A stretch of DNA of 64,000 nucleotides from Variovorax paradoxus. Lineage in GTDB: Bacteria > Pseudomonadota > Gammaproteobacteria > Burkholderiales > Burkholderiaceae_C. The stretch covers positions 2,542,001-2,606,000 of the forward strand of contig CP063166.1 in NCBI GenBank assembly GCA_016806145.1, given 5' to 3'. Under the pieces are notes generated by a model. That model searched no databases. It was not told where the DNA came from and saw nothing but the letters and a program-made list of their open reading frames with translations. This document shows positions 6,846 through 33,899 of the stretch, one piece after another. Numbering within the stretch: the stretch's first letter is position 1; each line of letters begins with the position of its first letter. The position numbers and the translations under genes are program-made.

Positions 6846-6892
6846 TCCCGCCGTTCGGTGCGGCCTTTCTTCCGAGGAAGGAAGGACGCACC

Positions 6893-7162
6893 GGCACCAC
6901 GGTTCGAAGGTGCCCCGCCCGCCATGCATGCCAGGGCCACGGGGTTAAACGGGAAGCAGGTGCGACGCGTCGATGCAAGGATCGACGCCTCCATTCCTGC
7001 GCTGCCCCCGCAACGGTCAGCGGATCTGGACGTCCTCACGCCATGCCCCCAGGGCATCGGCAGCCACTGCGCCCGCAAGGCGTGGGAAGGCGAGGGCTTC
7101 CGCAACGGCGCTGCAGTTTCGACTGCGCGCCTTTGCGCTCCGCGAGCCCGGATACCGGCCTT
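6893..7162 (+). ncRNA. Cobalamin riboswitch (B12 element)
   Basis: Conserved core blocks occur in the right order: a GGCACC/GGTGCC closing helix (about 6893-6919), GGTTAAACGGGAAGCAGGTG around 6943-6962, CTGCCCCCGCAACGGTCAG around 7000-7020, the B12-box-like GCCACTGCGCCCGCAAGGCG with TGGGAAGGCG, and the 3' block GAGCCCGGATACCGGCC at 7144-7160. A stable hairpin precedes it. It lies about 150 bases upstream of a TonB receptor and the cobalt chelatase genes. Binding of adenosyl- or hydroxocobalamin would shut off the operon, probably by hiding the ribosome binding site near 7307-7314. Confidence 0.93.
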
Positions 7163-7318
7163 CGTCACCGCCTCGGACGCTGCGGGAGTGCGTGTCCGGG
7201 CCGCCGGCCGGCGAAGCGCTTGCTTTGCCCGCCGCCGGCCCCGGCCATCGATCGACTTCCCGCCGCGTCCACATTCGGTCAGAGAACCTGCGGGGACGCG
7301 GGTCGGAGGAGAAGTCAA

Positions 7319-24632: not shown

Positions 24633-26561
24633 TCAGGACCACATCTTGCGCAGCACCGCCGAGAGTCCCGAGCCGGCGATCAGCGCGATGAAGAAGCGCA
24701 TCCAGCCGGCCTTGCGCTGGTAGATGTTGGCGACCCAGATCGCGCCCGTCATGAGGCCGATCAGCCAGGCATCGCGCAGCGACAGCAGGAAGCCCAGCAC
24801 GTAGGTGCCCTGGATCGCGATGCTGACCCACAGGCCCAGCAGCGACAGCGTGCTGCGTGGCTTCGCGGTCTGCGGGGCCGCGGCGGGCTCGGCTGTGCGC
24901 GGCGGTGCCTGCTCGACCCGCTGCGGCTCCTCCTGCGCGCGCTGGCGTTCGCGTTCGGCCTCGCGCTTCGCCTTCTTCTCGGCCGCGATCTGCTCGGGCG
25001 TTTTCTCGAGCACCGGTTCGGGCGCGCGCGCGGGCTGCCACCACGTGGGCAGGGGCGCGAGCCCGGCGGCCGACTGCCGGCGGAAGTGACCCGCGGGCAG
25101 CGGCGCGCGGGCCGGCGTCGCGGCCGTCGCGGGCGCCGATGCATGCTTCGCGGCCAGCGCCTTCACGCGCCGCAGGTAGGGCTCGGCGCGCGCGGGGTCG
25201 GCCATCGCGATGAAGTTCGCATAGCCGCGCAGCGCGGCGACCAGGTCGTGCTGGCCGTTCCAGTGCAGGCCCTGCGGGCCGTGGCGCTCGGCCTGGTGCA
25301 GCACGGCGCGAAAGCGCCGCAAGGTGTCGCGGTCGGTCGAGAGCTTGTCGTTGACCACGATGCCGGTCACGTGCTGCTGCTGGTGGCGGCGCATCACCTG
25401 CTGCTTGTCGGGATGCACCACGAAGCCTTCGCTGGCCACGATCTGCTTGGCGCGCCACAGGAGCTTGCCGACGTCGCGGCCATGTTCGGCATCGGCCGAG
25501 AAGCTCAGGTCGTCGGCATAGCGCGTGTAGCGAAAGCCCAGCCTGGCGGCGCAGGCGGCCAGCCGCGCGTCGAGCCGGCGGCACAGCACGTTGGTGAGCA
25601 TCGGGCTGGTGGGCGCGCCCTGCGGCAGCACGCGCTCGCCGCGCGCGACGACGTAGCGTTCGCCATCGAGCTCGACCTCGTCGGTCGGCGCCTCGGTCGC
25701 GAGCAGCGCGAACAGGGTCGCGACCTGCGGCGAGTAGCCGAGCTGGCGGAACACGCCGCGCACGCGGCGCAGGCCGATCGAGGGAAAGAAGTCCTGGAGG
25801 TCGAGGTTGACCACCACCGCCTGCCCCACGTGCGGCGCGGCGTTGCTGAGGATCGAGCGGCCCGGCAGGAAGCCGTGCACGGCTTCGTGCACCGGCACCT
25901 TGGCCAGCACGTTGTCGAGCACCCAGTACTGGGCGCGCTTGAGCCGCGGCATCGGCGCCGAGATCCGGCGTTCGCCGCCGGTCTTCTTGGGCACGGTGAA
26001 GCGCTGGTAGTGGCTCACGCGCGCGACCTCGCGGTGCCAGGCCAGGAAGCGCAGTTCCCCGAGTTCCAGGCCCATGGCGCGCGCGAGGTCGGTGGCGTCG
26101 TGCAGCGCCGGCAGCGCATGGCGCGCGAGCGACTGTTCGTCGCTGCGCGCCTCGTTGAGCCCGCCCGAGACGCCTTCGCCCAGGTACAGCAGCTCGCGCT
26201 GGCGCCGGCCGTGCCAGTCGAGCGCGCGCGCATGGCGCTGTTGCGCGAGGCGCTGGCGCGTTTCCTCGCGGCGTTCGCGCGCCCGCGCCATGCGCTCCTT
26301 GCGCATCGATTTGAGCGCGGTCTCGCGGTCCTCGATGCCGCGCAGCTCGTCGCCGAGATCGCGCAGCGCGGTCTGCAGTTCGCCCTCGCGGCGGATCAGT
26401 TGCGCCTCGACCGTGGGCTGCGCCGTGTCGCGCGGCCAGAAGCCCAGGCGCTGCATCTCCTCGAGCACGACCTCCTGCTTGGAGCTCGCGCGGATGCGTT
26501 CGTAGAGCTGCTCGCGCGTGAGTGCCGAATCGGGTACGGAGGAGGGAGAGGGTGGGGTCAT
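24633..26561 (-). CDS. Retron reverse transcriptase with C-terminal membrane segments
   Basis: 642 residues. RT motifs are in order: KKTGGERRISAP, NLDLQDFFPS (about 252-261), PQGAPTSP (313-320) and the catalytic YADD (348-351). Retron-specific NAxxH (NAAPH, 240-244) and VTG (398-400) are both present. The N-terminal ~130 residues are charged and probably coiled coil. After the thumb comes a Pro/Ala and Lys/Glu-rich linker (about 470-565), then hydrophobic segments near 571-593, 598-615 and 621-637, an unusual membrane-anchored tail. The start could also be 26579 (6 residues longer); neither has a clear ribosome binding site. It makes msDNA from the RNA just upstream. Confidence 0.93.
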   Translation of the reverse strand: MTPPSPSSVPDSALTREQLYERIRASSKQEVVLEEMQRLGFWPRDTAQPTVEAQLIRREGELQTALRDLGDELRGIEDRETALKSMRKERMARARERREETRQRLAQQRHARALDWHGRRQRELLYLGEGVSGGLNEARSDEQSLARHALPALHDATDLARAMGLELGELRFLAWHREVARVSHYQRFTVPKKTGGERRISAPMPRLKRAQYWVLDNVLAKVPVHEAVHGFLPGRSILSNAAPHVGQAVVVNLDLQDFFPSIGLRRVRGVFRQLGYSPQVATLFALLATEAPTDEVELDGERYVVARGERVLPQGAPTSPMLTNVLCRRLDARLAACAARLGFRYTRYADDLSFSADAEHGRDVGKLLWRAKQIVASEGFVVHPDKQQVMRRHQQQHVTGIVVNDKLSTDRDTLRRFRAVLHQAERHGPQGLHWNGQHDLVAALRGYANFIAMADPARAEPYLRRVKALAAKHASAPATAATPARAPLPAGHFRRQSAAGLAPLPTWWQPARAPEPVLEKTPEQIAAEKKAKREAERERQRAQEEPQRVEQAPPRTAEPAAAPQTAKPRSTLSLLGLWVSIAIQGTYVLGFLLSLRDAWLIGLMTGAIWVANIYQRKAGWMRFFIALIAGSGLSAVLRKMWS

Positions 26562-26604
26562 GGGCGGTGTGCGCCGCATGGACCGATGCACTGGAAGAAA
26601 AAGA

Positions 26605-26828
26605 TGCGAACGGGACGGGAATCTCGTCGAAGAGCCTGAGGACTGGACAGCTCCACTCGACGCCGTACGCGCATGGTGGCGCGATGAGCTTCGAAGAAGC
26701 CGCACCGTCATCGCGCCACCATGCGCGTACGGCACAGTGAAGAGATGTCCAGTGAAGCCTGGGAAGTGCTGAGATCGAGGATGGCGATGCGCCATCCGGA
26801 TTGCAAGAGCCTTCCCGCCCCGTTCGCA
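26605..26828 (-). ncRNA. Retron msr-msd RNA
   Basis: On the minus strand the 5' end a1 (26828-26812) reads TGCGAACGGGGCGGGAA and the 3' end a2 (26621-26605) reads TTCCCGTCCCGTTCGCA; they pair over 17 bp with a single G-U. The msr part has a perfect 8-bp hairpin with a 3-nt loop (26779-26797). The msd part has a perfect 26-bp stem (26662-26687 with 26708-26733), prolonged outward by CACT/AGTG, CTC/GAG and the 8-bp ACTGGACA/TGTCCAGT (26642-26649 with 26746-26753). The element fills the gap between the WHSWIM gene and the reverse transcriptase. The branching G is not obvious; TTGC about 26805 is one candidate. Confidence 0.92.
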
Positions 26829-26833
26829 AAACC

Positions 26834-26839
26834 AGTGTA
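26834..26839 (-). promoter_or_regulatory. Possible -10 box of the retron RNA
   Basis: On the minus strand TACACT begins right after the WHSWIM stop codon. Its expected start site, 6-7 bases downstream, coincides with the first bases of a1 at 26828. The -35 region is poor, so the RNA may also come from the operon transcript. Confidence 0.4.
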
Positions 26840-28555
26840 TCAGCCGATGCTTGCAGTCCTTTCTTCCGAGTCGGTCGCGGGCGTCGGTGCGCCCGCGGTG
26901 GTGCCAAGCGCCAGCGCGGCCGAGGCCGTGGCCAGGCGCAGCGCAAGCATGTGTTCGCACGGCCCCTTCGTCATGCGCAGGCGGATGAAGTGGTCGCACT
27001 GGCATTCGCCGGTGGCCACGCGCTGGTCGGCATCGAGCTGCAGCCGCACCTGGTACTGGCGCGAGGACTTGGTGCCGCACAGGCCGCTGAGCAGCAGGCC
27101 GCCGTCGGCCCGGGCCTCGACCTTCGTGTCCTTCAGGCGGCCGGCCTGCACCAGTTCGGCGGCGGCCGCTTCCTCGGGGCTGGCATGGCGCAGCCGTTCC
27201 ATCGGCAGCGGCTCGCGGCTGAGCTCGCGCAGGCGCCACACGCCGTGCGCGATGTCGTACACCACGCGCCCGGCCTGCACATAGCCGCCGAGCGCCGACT
27301 CGACCTTGAGCGGCGAGAGCCCGGTGGCCGCGGCCAGTTCGGCGGTGGTGGCGCGCCAGCGTTCGCCCAGCGCCGCGAACACGCGCAGCAGGCTGTCCTG
27401 GTCGACGTCATGGCGCGGCTGCAGCAGCTCGAAGTGGCCGTTGCGCGACCAGTCGTTGGCGGTCCAGCCCGACAGGCCCAGCGTGAATTCCATGTCGGGC
27501 AGCCGCGCGACCCAGAAGCTCGGCATGCCGGTGCCCAGCAGGTGCACCGTGAAGCCCTGCGCCACCGGCACCAGCCGCTCGAGCTGCAGCAGCCGGCGCC
27601 GGCCCCAGACGCGGATGTCGATGTCGGTGGGCGCGTCGTGCGAGGAACGCGGGCACACCAGTTCGTGGCCCCAGGGCTCGAACAGGATGCGTACCGGCTG
27701 CCCGGGCCGCAGGATGAAGCGCAGCGAGCGCGGGCCCGCGCGCTCCTTGCGGCGGCGCAGCACCAGGCAGATGTTGTGCACGTCCATCGGATGCAGCTGC
27801 AGCCGGTGCGCGGGCAACAGCATTGCGCTGCTGACCTGCAGGAAGCCGCGCACCCAGCTGTCGGGCACTTCGATCTTGGGCTCGTGGAAGGCCGGGTCGT
27901 TGCCGCTCTGCACCTGGAAGCCGCCGGGATCGATCGCCAGCCGCGTGGCCTTGTAGTCGCGGATCTTCTGGAACTCGTCGTAGAGCGACTCGGAGTAGTC
28001 GACGTTGGTGGTGCCGAAGGCATGGTCGCTCACGCGGTCGAAGACCTCGTGGCCGCAGGAGAACATGCCGTAGCTCGACTCGTCCTGGCTGAAGCACTCG
28101 AAGAACACGCGGTCGGGATGCACGGTGATCACCGGGTCGAGCACGAACCAGGCTTCGCGGTTGACCTTGTAGAGGTGGTCGAAGTAGCGCTTCTGCGCCT
28201 TGTAGAAGGGCTGCAGCATGGCCGACTTGCGCTGGCGCAGCACGTCGAGCTCCTCGCGCAGCGGCGCCATGCGGGCCTTGAGCTCGTCGCTGCGCGCCAT
28301 GTACTGCGCGAGCAGCTCGCCTTCCTGGCTCGCGAGCCATTCGAGGTAGGCGCTCTTGTCGCGCGGCTGGAAGCGCAGGTCGCCCACCACCACGTCGTGC
28401 AGCGCCGACATGCCTTCGCGAAACGGCAGGTGCCGGTTGACCTCGCCGATGAAGTGCACGGGCGCGCGCAGGGTGTCGGGCGCGAACTGCAGCGCGGTGC
28501 TGGTGGGCGTCTGCTGCGCGCCCGAGTGGCCGAAATAGCGGTACTGGAACTTCAT
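26840..28555 (-). CDS. WHSWIM-domain protein of the retron (winged helix plus SWIM zinc finger)
   Basis: 571 residues. The C-terminus has the SWIM zinc signature CxC-x12-CxH (C518, C520, C533, H535 in GECQCDHFIRLRMTKGPCEHML). Before it, residues about 390-445 form a winged helix (TTAELAAATGLSPLKVESALGGYVQAGRVVYD). The N-terminal ~380 residues have no family I can name. WHSWIM proteins define retron type XIII in published classifications, as I remember them, as a putative effector or DNA-binding part. The start ATG overlaps the stop of the HEAT/ARM gene (ATGA), and the retron RNA begins 12 bases after its stop. Confidence 0.88.
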   Translation of the reverse strand: MKFQYRYFGHSGAQQTPTSTALQFAPDTLRAPVHFIGEVNRHLPFREGMSALHDVVVGDLRFQPRDKSAYLEWLASQEGELLAQYMARSDELKARMAPLREELDVLRQRKSAMLQPFYKAQKRYFDHLYKVNREAWFVLDPVITVHPDRVFFECFSQDESSYGMFSCGHEVFDRVSDHAFGTTNVDYSESLYDEFQKIRDYKATRLAIDPGGFQVQSGNDPAFHEPKIEVPDSWVRGFLQVSSAMLLPAHRLQLHPMDVHNICLVLRRRKERAGPRSLRFILRPGQPVRILFEPWGHELVCPRSSHDAPTDIDIRVWGRRRLLQLERLVPVAQGFTVHLLGTGMPSFWVARLPDMEFTLGLSGWTANDWSRNGHFELLQPRHDVDQDSLLRVFAALGERWRATTAELAAATGLSPLKVESALGGYVQAGRVVYDIAHGVWRLRELSREPLPMERLRHASPEEAAAAELVQAGRLKDTKVEARADGGLLLSGLCGTKSSRQYQVRLQLDADQRVATGECQCDHFIRLRMTKGPCEHMLALRLATASAALALGTTAGAPTPATDSEERTASIG

Positions 28556-31500
28556 GCGGCGGTACCTCCGGCGACGGCGGCCCGGCGCGGCGCGACGGCG
28601 CGCACGGGCGCGGCCTGCAGCGGGTTCTCGAGCGCCGGATAGCGTTGCTGGATGCTGCGCAGGCCGGCCACGTAGCGGGCGCGCTCGGTGATGGCGCCGC
28701 TCACGGCCTGGCGCGCGAACACGCGCGCGACGATGCGCGCCGCCGCCTCGGACTGCTCGGCCTGCGCGGCGAGGAACTCGCTCACGCGCGCCTTGGCGAG
28801 CCGGCCGCGGTTGGCCTGCGACAGCACGGTGAGGAAGTAGGGCTCGAGCCGCGCCAGCACCTCGGGCTTGCCGCCCGCGGCGGCCGCCAGCCAGTTGGTC
28901 ACGAACAGCTGCATGCCGCTCGAGGGATGCTGGCTCAGCTGCAGCATGTAGGTGGTGACGTCGGTGAGTTCGAAGTGCGCCGTCAGCAGCTCGCGGCCCA
29001 GGCGCTGGGCGCCGGGATCCTTGTGGTCGCACAGGCGCACCAGCAGCGCGGGCGTCCATTGCGGCGACTGGCCTTGCGATGCGAACCACTCGCGCGCCCA
29101 GGCGAGCGCATCGTCCCAGCGACTGTCGAAGATGCGCAGCGCATCGTCGAGCTGCGCGAGCGTGCGCTCGGGCCGCGCGGCGAGCTGCTCGCAGGCCCAT
29201 TGCCGCGCGGCTGCGGCATCGACCAGCCCCAGGCTCGCGGTCTGCAGCACGTCGAAGGCCTCGGCCGGCTGCTGCGGCAGCAGCCAGGCGCCCAGCCGTT
29301 GCGCGCCCTTGCTGCGCGCCTCGAGCAGCCGCACGGTGGTGGCGCTGTCGCCCGCGCGCGTGTGCGCGGCCAGCGGGCCGCACAGCCACTGCAGCAGCGA
29401 ATCGAACACGCCCTCGGCCGCTTCGGTGCGGAACAGCTCGTCGCGCAGCATCGGCATCAGCGCCGCGCCGAAGTCCGGATGGCCGGGCAGCAGCTGCGCG
29501 AGCTTGGGCGCGACCGCGCTGCGCACGCGCGGCATCGGGCTGGCGCAGAACACGGCGAACAGCGCCGGCTGCGCGAGCAGCGTGTCGTCGGGCAGCGCGG
29601 TGAACAGGCGCACGCCGGCGCCGCGCAGCCGCTCGTCGTCCGACTGCAGCAGCCGCGTCAGCACCTCGATCGGCAGGCCTTGAACGGATGCCGGATGCAG
29701 CAGCAGCCACTCGGCCGCGAGCGCGACCACGTCGGGGCTCGCATGGTCGAACAGGGCCAGCAGTTCGGCCAGCGGCGCCTTCGAGCCGGCTTCGCGCAGC
29801 GGGTTCTGCAGCGCCCATTGCAGGTTCTCGCAGATGGCGGCGAGTTCGGGTGCCTGCGCATCGCAGCGCGCGAGCCAGTCGAGCAGCGCGGTACACAGCG
29901 CGTCGAAGCTGTCCGCCGTCTCTGGCTGGCCCACCGCGGCCTGCAGCAGCAGGCGCGAGGCGCGGCGCACCTCGGCGTCGGCCGAGACCAGCAGGCGCAG
30001 CAGCAGCTCGACGTCGCGGCTGTAGCGCGCCGGGTCCTCGGCGATCAGGTCGAGTGCATGGCGGCGTGCTTCGTCCAGTGGCGAATCGATCAGCGGCACG
30101 AGCCAGGGGCCGGCGGGCTCGCCGGCCTCGATGCGCTCGCGCACCAGCGTCAACGCGAAGCGCGCCGTGTCGTTCCAGGCGCTCGCGAGCAGCTCGCGCA
30201 GCACGGCGCCATCGAGTGCTTGGCAGAAGGCGCGGTTGTCCTGCAGCGCGCGCGCCGCGAAGGCATGCACGCCGGCGCAGCGCGACTGCCGCATCAGCTG
30301 CAGCAGCGCCTCCGGATGGCGGTCCCAGCGCTCGGGCCAGGCCTCGCCGCGTTGCGCGCGGTGCTCGGCCGGCGGCGTCTCGCGGCGCCAGTAGAGGCCA
30401 CCGGCCAGCGCAGTCCATTCGGGGTCATGGCGATGCAGCAGCTGCATCACGACCAGCCAGCGGCTGTAGGGGCCGCTGTGCCAGACGCGCGTCTCGCGGT
30501 TCCAGCCTGCATCCTCATGGCGCGCCGCGACGGCCGCGTCCGCATCGTCGGCCGCGAGCAGCACGCCCATCGCGAGCCGCAGCCAGTCGCGCTCGTCGGC
30601 CGCGCCGCGCAGCGCGAGCCGGCGCAAGGTGCGCCAGGTGCGGCGGCGCAGGTAGTCGTGCGTGCGCTGGCTCAGCGCGAGCCGGCTGTCGGGGCGCACG
30701 ATCTCCTTCGCGATGTCGACGTAGCGGCCGTTGAGCATGGCCCATTGGCTGGTGCCGCGAAAACCCGCGCGCTGCGTTTCGAGGCGCTGGTTCAGCAGGC
30801 CCAGCAGGCGGTAGTCGCCCGCGAACTCGGCACCCTTGTAGAGCCGGCGCCAGGCGCGGAAGCTGCGCGCGGCCAGCGAGAGCTGCTGCGCCACGTCGTG
30901 CAGCGCACTGCGCGCCAGGCCGGCGGGCTGGTCCTCGTCGAGGCCTTCGAGCAGCGCGAGTTCGAACAGCTGCTGTGTCCAGTCGGTGTGCGCGAGGCTC
31001 TGCCAGTGCGCGGGGTCGGCGAGCCGTTCGCGCAGCAGCGCGGCGGGCTCGGCCACCGGAACGACCTGCGCCTCGGTCCAGGCGCGGCGCAGCGAGCCGG
31101 GCCAGTCGTCGACGATGCGCTCGGCTTCCGCGGCGCGACGTTCGGCGGGCCACAGCGCGAGCGCGGCCCAGCGCGCGATGCGCGTCACTTTGGGGTCGGT
31201 CGCGCGGCGCGAGAGCTCGAGCATTGCCTCGAAGGCGCCCGTGTCGCCGCAGCGGCCGATGGCCCAGGCGATGCAGTAGTCGAGCATCGCGTCGCCGGTC
31301 TCGATCAGCTCGACCAGCCGCGGCACCGCCTGCGCGAGCCGGCGTTCGCCGAGGCGCCACACGGTGCGGCTGCGGCGCAGCGGCGGTAGCAGGCGCCAGG
31401 CATCGGGCGCGATGCGCTCGAGCAGGATGGTGTCGGCCGGCGAAAGAGAAGCGGCGGCGGCGATGGGCGCGGCCGGTGCCGATGCAACGATGGGCGCACC

Positions 31501-31749
31501 TTCGAGCGCGAGGCCGCGCGAGAGCTGCGCGGCGAGCGCATCGCCGAACACCGCCATCGCCTTGTCGAGCGCGAGCGGCGAGGGTGTCAGCACGGTCTCG
31601 CGCCACTGCAGTCCGTCGCGGCTGCTGCTCAGGTGCACCACGTGCCCGGCGTCGGCGGGCAGCTCGAACAGTTCGATGGTGACGTGTTCCGTGACCGTCG
31701 ATGTCCCCGGTCTCGTTCGTGTGAGTTTCTCGGATCGAATGCGCTTCAC
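28552..31749 (-). CDS. Large HEAT/ARM-like repeat protein of the retron operon
   Basis: 1065 residues from a GTG at 31749 preceded by GGGAGG. After an N-terminal beta-rich region of about 100 residues, the protein is almost all amphipathic helices in HEAT/ARM-like pairs, for example ERRLAQAVPRLVELIETGDAML with IGRCGDTGAFEAMLELSRRATD, and later LLRLLVSADAEVRRASRLLLQAAVG. Neither signal peptide nor membrane segment is seen. An alpha-solenoid of this size probably serves as a scaffold or sensor for the WHSWIM protein, whose gene it overlaps. An ARM-repeat gene beside WHSWIM and RT matches the type XIII retron layout. Confidence 0.85.
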   Translation of the reverse strand: MKRIRSEKLTRTRPGTSTVTEHVTIELFELPADAGHVVHLSSSRDGLQWRETVLTPSPLALDKAMAVFGDALAAQLSRGLALEGAPIVASAPAAPIAAAASLSPADTILLERIAPDAWRLLPPLRRSRTVWRLGERRLAQAVPRLVELIETGDAMLDYCIAWAIGRCGDTGAFEAMLELSRRATDPKVTRIARWAALALWPAERRAAEAERIVDDWPGSLRRAWTEAQVVPVAEPAALLRERLADPAHWQSLAHTDWTQQLFELALLEGLDEDQPAGLARSALHDVAQQLSLAARSFRAWRRLYKGAEFAGDYRLLGLLNQRLETQRAGFRGTSQWAMLNGRYVDIAKEIVRPDSRLALSQRTHDYLRRRTWRTLRRLALRGAADERDWLRLAMGVLLAADDADAAVAARHEDAGWNRETRVWHSGPYSRWLVVMQLLHRHDPEWTALAGGLYWRRETPPAEHRAQRGEAWPERWDRHPEALLQLMRQSRCAGVHAFAARALQDNRAFCQALDGAVLRELLASAWNDTARFALTLVRERIEAGEPAGPWLVPLIDSPLDEARRHALDLIAEDPARYSRDVELLLRLLVSADAEVRRASRLLLQAAVGQPETADSFDALCTALLDWLARCDAQAPELAAICENLQWALQNPLREAGSKAPLAELLALFDHASPDVVALAAEWLLLHPASVQGLPIEVLTRLLQSDDERLRGAGVRLFTALPDDTLLAQPALFAVFCASPMPRVRSAVAPKLAQLLPGHPDFGAALMPMLRDELFRTEAAEGVFDSLLQWLCGPLAAHTRAGDSATTVRLLEARSKGAQRLGAWLLPQQPAEAFDVLQTASLGLVDAAAARQWACEQLAARPERTLAQLDDALRIFDSRWDDALAWAREWFASQGQSPQWTPALLVRLCDHKDPGAQRLGRELLTAHFELTDVTTYMLQLSQHPSSGMQLFVTNWLAAAAGGKPEVLARLEPYFLTVLSQANRGRLAKARVSEFLAAQAEQSEAAARIVARVFARQAVSGAITERARYVAGLRSIQQRYPALENPLQAAPVRAVAPRRAAVAGGTAA

Positions 31750-31867: not shown

Positions 31868-32632
31868 TCACCACGCCATCTGCCGCCACGGGCTGTGCTC
31901 GTGCGAGAGCAGGTGGGCGGTGGCGCGCTGGAAGGTGTCGGTGTCCTCGGCGATGCGGTCGAGATCGTGGGTGGCGAGCCAGAACGCGCGCCCGACCACG
32001 AAGCTGTCGCCGAAGTCGCGCCACGACTGGTAGGCGGGCTGCGCGAGGCGCGCCGCGCTCGCGATCGCGTTCCACGACTCCTCGGCGCGCAGCAGCCGCG
32101 CATCCTGGATCAGCCGGTGCATCTGCACCAGTCGGCCCATGTCCCAGGCCATGATGCTCGCGGGCAGCGGCCGCGGCAGCTTGTCGAACAGGCCTTCCTC
32201 GGCGGCCTCGTGCCAACTTTCGTAGTAGTCGCGCGTTCTCTCGAGATCGAGGCCGCGTCCCACCGCTTCGCCGGGCAGTGCCGCGAGGTTGGCTTGCGCC
32301 ACCGCCGCCGCATCGCTTCGGCTGCCGCGGTGCAGGCGCTCGACGCGCGGATTCACCACCGCGTAGTGCGCGCGGTGGCCCTGCGAGAGCAGCGACTCGG
32401 TGACCTCGCGCGCGCTGCTGGCGTTGGTGACGCCCCAGGCCGAGGCCAGCAGCGCCACGGCGGTGGCGCGGTCCGATTCGGTGGTGAGCGCGTTGATCGG
32501 CAGGTAGGACTCGGCCGCGTAGACCGCGCCGAGCGCGAGGCCGCGATGCTGCGCCGGCGTCAGCGGCGTGCTGTCCTCGAGCCGGTTGAAACTGAATGAA
32601 AAAAGCTTGCGGACCTTGTCCAGAAATCCCAT
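31868..32632 (-). CDS. DUF1266-domain protein
   Basis: 254 residues. The C-terminal half matches the DUF1266 pattern: AWDMGRLVQMHRLIQDARLL, then ESWNAIASAARLAQPAYQSWRDFGDSFVVGRAFWLA. The start ATG at 32632 follows AAGGGGAC; longer versions would run into the divergent promoter region. Function of DUF1266 is unknown; such genes often appear next to polymorphic toxin or defence genes. It lies 118 bases upstream of the HEAT/ARM gene on the same strand, so it may be part of the retron operon or merely a neighbour. Confidence 0.82.
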   Translation of the reverse strand: MGFLDKVRKLFSFSFNRLEDSTPLTPAQHRGLALGAVYAAESYLPINALTTESDRATAVALLASAWGVTNASSAREVTESLLSQGHRAHYAVVNPRVERLHRGSRSDAAAVAQANLAALPGEAVGRGLDLERTRDYYESWHEAAEEGLFDKLPRPLPASIMAWDMGRLVQMHRLIQDARLLRAEESWNAIASAARLAQPAYQSWRDFGDSFVVGRAFWLATHDLDRIAEDTDTFQRATAHLLSHEHSPWRQMAW

Positions 32633-32789
32633 GGCGCCGTCCCCTTGTGTTCGCCTGTGCGGGCGTAGGCTAGGTGCGCCGGGCGCGCGGCGCCAGTGCC
32701 TAAAGTCATTGGGCGACATCGCGTGTGGTGTGTAGCATCGCAGCGTCGTGCCATGCCACGGCGCCGTTCGTTCCATCGCATCCGCCGCC

Positions 32790-33899
32790 ATGTCCAGCAC
32801 CGAATCGCTTTCGCAATCCAGCTTCCTCTACTTCACCGGCCAGGGCTCCGACAAGGTCTACCAGGTCCACCTGCGGCCGAAGGACGAGGGCTGGGTGGTC
32901 GACTACGGCAACGGCCGGCGCGGTGGCACGCTCGCCACCGGCACCAAGACCAGCAGCCCGGTCGGCTACGAGGCCGCGCTCAAGATCTACCAGAAGGTGG
33001 TGAAGGAGAAGACCGGCAAGGGCTACACCACCGATGCATCGGGCGCGCTCTACACCGCTTCCGAATTCGCGGGCCGCATGAGTGGCGAGCTGCCGCAGCT
33101 GCCCACCCTGATCGCCGAGACGCAGCTCACGCGCTACCTCGACGACCCCGGCTGGGGCCTGCAGGAAAAGGCCGATGGCGAGAACCGCATGCTGGTGATC
33201 GAGGAGGACGCGGTGCGCGGCACCAACCGCCGCGGCCTGTTCGTCGACATACCGCAGGCCTGGGTCGCGACCGCCGCGCTGCCGGCCGGCCGCGCGGTGA
33301 TCGCGGGCGAGCACGTGGGCGATGGCTTCCTGGCCTTCGACCTGCTCGAGGCCGCCGGCGAGGACCTGCGCGCGCAGGCCTTCGTCGAACGCTTCCGGCG
33401 GCTCGAGGCCTTCGCGAGCGCCTTGCCATGGATGGCCGTGCTGCCGCTCGAGACCGAGGCCTCGGCCAAGCACCGGCGCGCGGCCGAGTTGCGCGCGGCG
33501 CATGGCGAGGGCTTCGTGCTCAAGGCGCTGGCCGCGCCCTTCGCCGCGGGGCGCAGCAATGCGAGCCTCAAGTTCAAGTTCCAGCAGAGCGCGACCTGCG
33601 AGGTGCTGCGCGTCAATGCGCAACGCTCGGTGGCCGTGGGCCTGCGCGACGAGGCCGGCGTGCTGGTCGATCTGGGCAACGTCACCGTGCCGCCGAACGA
33701 AGCGCTGCCCGCGCCCGGCACACTGGTCGAGGTGCGCTATCTCTATCGCTATGCGGGCGGCAGCTTCGAGCAGCCGGTCTATCGCGGGCAGCGGCCCGAC
33801 ATGGCGGCCGAAGATGCACTGCTCGCGCAGGTCACGCGCATCAAGGAACGCAGTGCCGTCGCGGAAGAAGAGCGCGACGACGGGAGCGACGTCGCGTGA
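32790..33899 (+). CDS. WGR-domain protein fused to an ATP-dependent DNA ligase-like nucleotidyltransferase
   Basis: 369 residues. Residues about 10-75 form a WGR domain (SFLYFTGQGSDKVYQVHL, DYGNGRRGGTL). From residue 120 there is a covalent nucleotidyltransferase: motif I EKADGENR (Lys127), motif III-like IAGEHVGDGFLAFDLLE, motif IV EGFVLKAL (Glu240), motif V SLKFKF (Lys261, Lys263), and an OB-like C-terminus ending in PVYRGQRPD (motif VI-like). It may adenylate and seal nicked nucleic acid recognised by the WGR part. It is divergent from the DUF1266 gene over a 157-base gap and overlaps the lipoprotein gene downstream. Confidence 0.83.
   Translation: MSSTESLSQSSFLYFTGQGSDKVYQVHLRPKDEGWVVDYGNGRRGGTLATGTKTSSPVGYEAALKIYQKVVKEKTGKGYTTDASGALYTASEFAGRMSGELPQLPTLIAETQLTRYLDDPGWGLQEKADGENRMLVIEEDAVRGTNRRGLFVDIPQAWVATAALPAGRAVIAGEHVGDGFLAFDLLEAAGEDLRAQAFVERFRRLEAFASALPWMAVLPLETEASAKHRRAAELRAAHGEGFVLKALAAPFAAGRSNASLKFKFQQSATCEVLRVNAQRSVAVGLRDEAGVLVDLGNVTVPPNEALPAPGTLVEVRYLYRYAGGSFEQPVYRGQRPDMAAEDALLAQVTRIKERSAVAEEERDDGSDVA

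Follow-up and report, generated by a model that had tools for sequence, protein, structure and literature searches.

Can a retron act on phages when none of its genes encodes a recognisable ordinary toxin? This question is raised by a locus in a 64,000-nucleotide stretch of DNA from Variovorax paradoxus (GenBank assembly GCA_016806145.1, contig CP063166.1, positions 2,542,001 to 2,606,000 of the forward strand), referred to here as the window, in a host genome of 9.44 Mb. The locus encodes a reverse transcriptase (RT), a SWIM ('WHSWIM') protein and a large WGR/HEAT protein, together with a structured RNA. We found that it is almost certainly a complete type XIII retron. This is an already known kind, reportedly set out in the Mestre et al. 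2020 classification, and is presumed to serve in phage defence. Two points go beyond an earlier note on this DNA: a clamp-like fold predicted in the SWIM protein and a hydrophobic tail on the RT.

Identification of a type XIII retron

The earlier note had read an RT, a structured RNA, a WHSWIM protein and a 1065-residue protein in this locus. All of them are present on the minus strand (Table 1), and the type XIII assignment holds, with each of the three proteins best matched by a type XIII model of PADLOC by a wide margin. A profile check of the RT, which the note had proposed, gave RT_XIII as the top model (637 bits, E 5.2e-192; 343 bits for the runner-up RT model). The top models for the partners were SWIM_XIII (728 bits, E 1.4e-219) and WGR_XIII (901 bits, E 2.6e-271, residues 1-1050). 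Pfam recognised RVT_1 in the RT (4.4e-21, residues 190-402), HEAT repeats in the large protein (HEAT_2, 5.9e-10) and, slightly below the cut-off, the SWIM finger. The description of the large protein as HEAT/ARM-like thus stands for its HEAT repeats, but PADLOC prefers WGR_XIII to HEAT-ARM_XIII (901 versus 62 bits).

The genes run in the order WGR/HEAT, SWIM, RNA and RT. The SWIM gene start overlaps the WGR/HEAT gene stop by 4 nt, as expected from the note's single operon with overlapping genes, but no other genes overlap. Between the SWIM and RT genes lies a gap of 278 nt that contains most of the retron RNA. A scan for promoters and terminators found nothing above chance. The window has all the parts of the PADLOC retron_XIII system (RT, SWIM protein, WGR/HEAT protein, msr-msd RNA), but differs from it in that the RT extends past the model, which matches up to residue 538 of 642, into three hydrophobic helices.

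The retron hallmarks NAxxH and VTG were confirmed as NAAPH (residues 240-244) and VTG (398-400). In an alignment of 45 type XIII rows, H244, V398, T399 and G400 are invariant, and N240 and A241 are conserved in at least 90%. Retron RTs made up 14 of the 15 PDB sequence matches, with Ec86 the best (5e-40); two of the 14 are titled only RNA-directed DNA polymerase, and their retron identity was taken from the fold search. The fifteenth was a group II intron RT (2e-6). The first 18 rows of the Foldseek ranking were also retron RTs, with enzymes of group II introns, diversity-generating retroelements, LINE-1 and defence-associated RTs (DRTs) ranking below them. Profile and fold rankings thus place the enzyme among retron RTs, against the possibility, raised in the earlier note, that it falls outside them. 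A quick tree, flagged for long branches, puts it inside a clade of 85 of the 97 rows (Shimodaira-Hasegawa-like approximate likelihood ratio test, 98); this tree was made up of type XIII RTs and remoter matches from one and the same profile search, and neither group II intron nor DRT enzymes served as an outgroup. Retron Ec86 (Eco1) is the nearest solved RT by sequence and by fold (template-modelling score TMt 0.81), but its solved chains, at 309-349 residues, lack both the extension and the hydrophobic tail seen in the window RT. Ec86 also has a different effector.

Table 1. Parts of the type XIII retron locus, in positions of the window
Feature	Position	Strand	Basis or detail
WGR/HEAT gene, 1065 aa, GTG start	28552..31749	minus	PADLOC WGR_XIII
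SWIM ('WHSWIM') gene, 571 aa; winged helix, SWIM zinc finger and predicted clamp-like fold	26840..28555	minus	PADLOC SWIM_XIII
PCNA sliding-clamp-like fold (predicted), SWIM protein residues 34-366	27458..28456	minus	structure model; helical insert ~62-139, largely low confidence
Winged-helix region, SWIM protein residues ~375-445	27221..27433	minus	three helices and two strands in model
SWIM zinc finger CxC...CxH, residues 501-539	26939..27055	minus	Pfam SWIM, invariant residues
Full conserved RNA region, including outer 14-pair helix	26581..26849	minus	alignment of Variovorax copies
Retron non-coding RNA (msr-msd), a1 to a2	26605..26828	minus	inverted repeats, folding, covariation
a1 arm, 17 nt, 94% complementary to a2	26812..26828	minus	inverted-repeat search
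msr hairpin, 8-bp stem, 3-nt loop	26779..26797	minus	inverted repeat; one pair changed on both sides in 7/15 sequences
msd long hairpin, arms 26708-26753 and 26642-26687	26642..26753	minus	inverted repeat; helix 7 covariation
a2 arm, 17 nt	26605..26621	minus	inverted-repeat search
RT gene, 642 aa	24633..26561	minus	PADLOC RT_XIII, Pfam RVT_1
Conserved C-terminal extension of RT, residues 491-550, with FRRQSAAGLAPLPTWWQP	24912..25091	minus	predicted ordered, 10-residue blocks with predicted local distance difference test (pLDDT) 81-97
C-terminal hydrophobic, presumed membrane module of RT	24639..24848	minus	helices 572-593, 598-618, 620-641; block pLDDT 62-81

The retron RNA

The structured RNA that the earlier note saw directly upstream of the RT gene is a textbook msr-msd with 17-nt a1 and a2 arms. 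The msd stem arms are 46 nt each and 85% complementary, and an outer helix of 14 pairs sits outside a1/a2, its 5' arm covering the SWIM stop codon. The RNA has a folding energy of -140.7 kcal/mol, compared with -86.5 +/- 4.8 in shuffles (z = -11.3), and none of 200 shuffles equalled it.

Covariation was examined in an alignment of the window RNA with 14 other Variovorax copies (n=15, 93% mean identity). Changes on both sides were found in 10 of the 97 pairs, a number reached by 4 of 500 shuffles, and helix 7 of the msd has seven such pairs. The cells changed on both sides numbered 45 against a shuffle mean of 15.0, which none of 500 shuffles reached. Paired cells made up 99.2%; once partners were slid by 1-3 columns, this fell to 33-46% and only 0-1 pairs changed on both sides were left, compared with 10 unslid. 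One measure pointed in the opposite direction: further pair types (17) were below the shuffle mean of 19.9.

Among 65 SWIM genes of related loci, 41 with a readable gap were selected. In 23 of these gaps, the best repeat of the a1/a2 type scored above each of 40 shuffles; in the other 18, at least one shuffle did as well. An Rfam scan of the window found no retron RNA family, its sole match at gathering score being a cobalamin riboswitch. Sub-threshold Rfam matches of the msd hairpin to miRNA families are best read as chance matches to a long hairpin.

A predicted clamp-like fold in the SWIM protein

The AlphaFold2 model of the SWIM protein (pLDDT 77.9, predicted template-modelling score 0.77) very probably contains a PCNA-like clamp fold, and both domains of such a fold are found in the predicted structure. 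The naming of this protein as WHSWIM fits the SWIM_XIII match, the winged-helix region of the model and the zinc-finger residues C518, C520, C533 and H535, which are invariant among the aligned members. Pfam SWIM was found in 47 of these 49 members (E<=5). Pfam matches to winged helices were weak and confined to some relatives (DprA_WH in 6/49, HTH_65 in 5/49). Nine of 19 conserved basic positions fall on four helices (p 0.012) that may correspond to those lining the hole of PCNA. The protein differs from PCNA and other DNA sliding clamps in its low identity (10%) without a sequence match, and in having a helical insert, a fused winged helix and the SWIM zinc finger.

The C-terminal extension and hydrophobic tail of the RT

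The conserved extension and the three-helix hydrophobic tail of the window RT are a new element of the present analysis. After residue 550, the structure model shows a disordered linker and then three predicted helices of hydrophobic sequence, which are likely to be membrane helices. Hydrophobic C-terminal segments occur in all 14 same-genus RTs with an intact end, the window included; a fifteenth (L015) is cut by its contig end. Of 97 RTs compared (leaving out L001, L002, L010, L015, L044, L047, L058, L101 and L102 as duplicates, cut ends or the window itself), 29 have such segments, and 28 of these are proteobacterial, judged by title or by relationship to the window's genome, with L068 as the exception.

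On the quick tree, the tailed RTs form one group with Variovorax, Delftia, Cupriavidus, Methylobacterium and others (21/22 tailed) and a second with Vibrio, Enterovibrio, Pleionea and others (7/7 tailed). L084 is a wholly tailless row within a tailed group. L068 is a lone tailed row: its RT (L068:2829-4952) is fused at the C-terminus to a membrane domain that Pfam identifies as RDD (2.6e-6, above the cut-off). We do not claim repeated independent gain of tails: the tree needs four changes, yet a single clade of 27 tailed rows has p 0.24 in the approximately unbiased (AU) test, run on 84 rows after removal of 13 distant or duplicate rows. A common origin of the two main tailed groups is thus compatible with the AU test, which did not reject it, and the RDD tail of L068 is of a different kind.

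Since 68 of the 97 RTs have no tail, it is not essential to type XIII. The same count bears on a rival explanation in which the hydrophobic module is the killing effector, released upon alteration of the msDNA (multicopy single-stranded DNA) to damage the membrane. Pfam recognised no catalytic domain in the large protein and no catalytic toxin domain in either partner, and dissimilar modules, an RDD domain among them, are found on type XIII RTs. Transmembrane proteins are among the retron effector types named in PMC13405049. Against this, the tailless RTs include those of Bacteroidota and myxobacteria whose loci keep the same partner genes, and hydrophobic helices alone do not demonstrate toxicity. 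We therefore regard a killing tail as improbable. The chances that the helices of the window RT are an anchor rather than a killing part seem to us about even.

Many soluble type XIII RTs end differently. Within the core clade of 85 RTs, a regular expression found a short aromatic C-terminal motif in 35 (for example KPWWKFW, KKWWKLF, ENWWNIF and KPWWDVL, with looser fits in L062, L072, L086 and L098). Another 29 have hydrophobic segments and an internal WW or WF, the match in L068 lying within the RDD part, and 21 have neither motif nor segments, 12 of them cyanobacterial by title. This aromatic tail might be a peptide resembling a PCNA-interacting protein (PIP) box that docks on the SWIM clamp fold: its core is aromatic, it is C-terminal past a variable linker, and the same operon encodes a clamp fold. 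However, the sequence departs from the canonical PIP box, and the WW of the window RT is internal, in an ordered block (pLDDT 90, monomer model), suggesting that it packs on the RT. Docking of this kind is quite doubtful.

Distribution and chromosomal site

Of 100 same-genus genomes, 15 carry RT_XIII at E<=1e-100. Among 369 genomes of the class, 10 have it at 1e-80, including three weaker matches outside the core clade; both counts include the window's own genome. In a scan of species genomes, we kept the best 80 of at least 579 confirmed loci, which came from proteobacteria, Bacteroidota, cyanobacteria, myxobacteria, planctomycetes and others. On the fetched stretches of these 80, both partner genes were present at 62 loci, SWIM only at 4, WGR/HEAT only at 1 and neither at 13. 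Partnerless type XIII-like RTs with 9 kb of upstream sequence were seen at L073, L075, L083, L087, L088 and L036 (five cyanobacterial, one Xanthocytophaga), and the remaining 7 of the 13 have less than 2.2 kb upstream of the RT. In genome G216, WGR/HEAT-like and SWIM genes are adjacent (L184:5531-10602) and the RT_XIII gene is on another contig (L119); it looks as if the retron parts are split there or the assembly is broken.

A RIO kinase gene lies downstream of the retron in the window and in 12 of the 14 other Variovorax loci examined, which indicates that the retron sits in a single chromosomal neighbourhood. As for the exceptions, the L117 stretch ends right past the RT, and L106 has no RIO gene, its next marker being 0.8 kb downstream. 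A PADLOC type XIII retron is also listed for a Variovorax strain in PMC11953036. No tRNA genes were found in the window, where other mobile-element markers were not looked for.

This constant site could suit a housekeeping or regulatory msDNA system outside defence. We consider that very unlikely, since the patchy occurrence within the genus (15/100 genomes) and the presence in distant phyla resemble the behaviour of defence systems.

A proposed mode of action

The RT, msDNA, clamp fold, winged helix, SWIM finger and, in relatives, WGR domain are mostly nucleic-acid-handling kinds. Because the pieces are of this type and no ordinary toxin was recognised, interference at DNA is favoured over a soluble toxin. 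As in the retron family, the RT would reverse-transcribe the msd portion of the RNA, and the long hairpin of the resulting msDNA would remain bound to the RT. Operon structure and co-occurrence suggest that this ribonucleoprotein associates with the SWIM protein and with the WGR/HEAT protein as a scaffold. The clamp fold may contact duplex DNA, at the msd stem or at a replication fork, for which we see slightly less than an even chance. By analogy with other retrons, phage replication could be sensed through release or rearrangement of the complex, and DNA transactions would then be blocked or the cell arrested; we hold this step more tentatively still. In the Variovorax lineage, the C-terminal helices of the RT would hold the complex at the inner membrane. 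As a whole, we find this the best explanation and somewhat probable.

Several observations weigh against it. A family-profile search of PDB sequences with the SWIM protein found no PCNA at E<=10, and the Pfam scan of the 49 SWIM members matched 46 families, with PCNA not among the 25 that were listed; because no PCNA profile matches, we do not class the SWIM protein as PCNA. The helical insert of the clamp region includes segments (60-67, 78-88 and 132-139) below pLDDT 50. Pfam recognised no WGR domain in the WGR/HEAT protein of the window, in which it differs from other type XIII retrons, or in L026, the sole other Variovorax copy scanned. The tail is absent from most RTs compared, and 13 of the 80 loci have neither partner gene, six of them with 9 kb of upstream sequence. 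As for the WGR domain, Pfam found it in 28 of 37 aligned WGR/HEAT members, the window's protein not among them. Judging from sequence, the N-terminal WGR region is diverged in the Variovorax lineage, and it could be a DNA binder.

The main rivals of this explanation are the killing module, described above, and a reading in which the clamp fold does not form a ring. In the latter, the fold would be a monomeric scaffold for binding msDNA or protein, and the WGR/HEAT protein would be the effector. Herpesviruses have monomeric clamp-fold proteins, and a murid herpesvirus protein stands at row 41 of a match list; the missing PCNA sequence signal of the SWIM family and the helical insert in the first clamp domain fit this rival as well. 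We regard such a scaffold as possible, if not favoured. A bolder extension of the proposed mode of action is that type XIII retrons encode their own sliding clamp, in which a PCNA-like ring, fused in the SWIM protein to a winged helix and a SWIM finger, would be loaded onto either phage replication intermediates or the stem of the msDNA. Proteobacterial RTs would be tethered to the inner membrane by varied modules. We consider this rather unlikely. In the open-licence literature of PubMed Central, which does not include the defining classification and retron census, we found no described type XIII mechanism, and, judged by titles, no paper there deals with retrons with a sliding clamp.

Neighbouring genes and related SWIM pairs

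A DUF1266 gene (31868-32605, minus; 4.7e-33) lies between the retron and a gene for a WGR-domain protein with a weak RNA/DNA-ligase match (32748-33899, plus), which is divergent from the retron. No match to the DUF1266 gene was found at 1e-10 in 19 related loci searched. Within the genus, 13 of 15 RT-positive genomes have the WGR-ligase gene but only 16 of 85 RT-negative ones, which looked like an association. We rejected it as a part of the retron, as 9 of the 13 RT-negative loci fetched have it close to the RIO kinase gene although no retron is there. Its domain follows a long N-terminal extension in 4 of 6 reading frames inspected, and the one extension scanned with Pfam (L133) contains ankyrin repeats and DUF6891. 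Because it occurs near the RIO gene without the retron, often after such an extension, we take it to belong to the site itself. Elsewhere in the window, the cobalamin riboswitch is at 6892-7177 (plus, 71.4 bits).

SWIM genes also occur beside large DUF6493/DUF7824/DUF7825 genes, at L181:8580-12772 and L183:2920-7679, on contigs without an RT_XIII match. The large gene was scanned in L181 and L183 and the SWIM gene in L181 and L182; the large neighbour in L182 lies on the opposite strand. These SWIM proteins resemble the retron ones by profile (E 5.9e-22 in genome G339, which has no RT_XIII match at 1e-80) and in lying beside a large gene. They differ in being shorter (457-470 aa), in their large partner and in the absence of RT_XIII at 1e-80 on the three contigs. 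Type XIII may thus be a pair of SWIM and large proteins joined to a retron.

Implications

A membrane-anchored retron RT, if true, would to our knowledge be novel. A clamp fold in the SWIM protein would supply a concrete hypothesis for type XIII retrons, namely DNA encirclement or replication sensing, and would help account for the lack of a recognised ordinary toxin. It would also bring a bacterial protein without detectable sequence similarity into the clamp folds.

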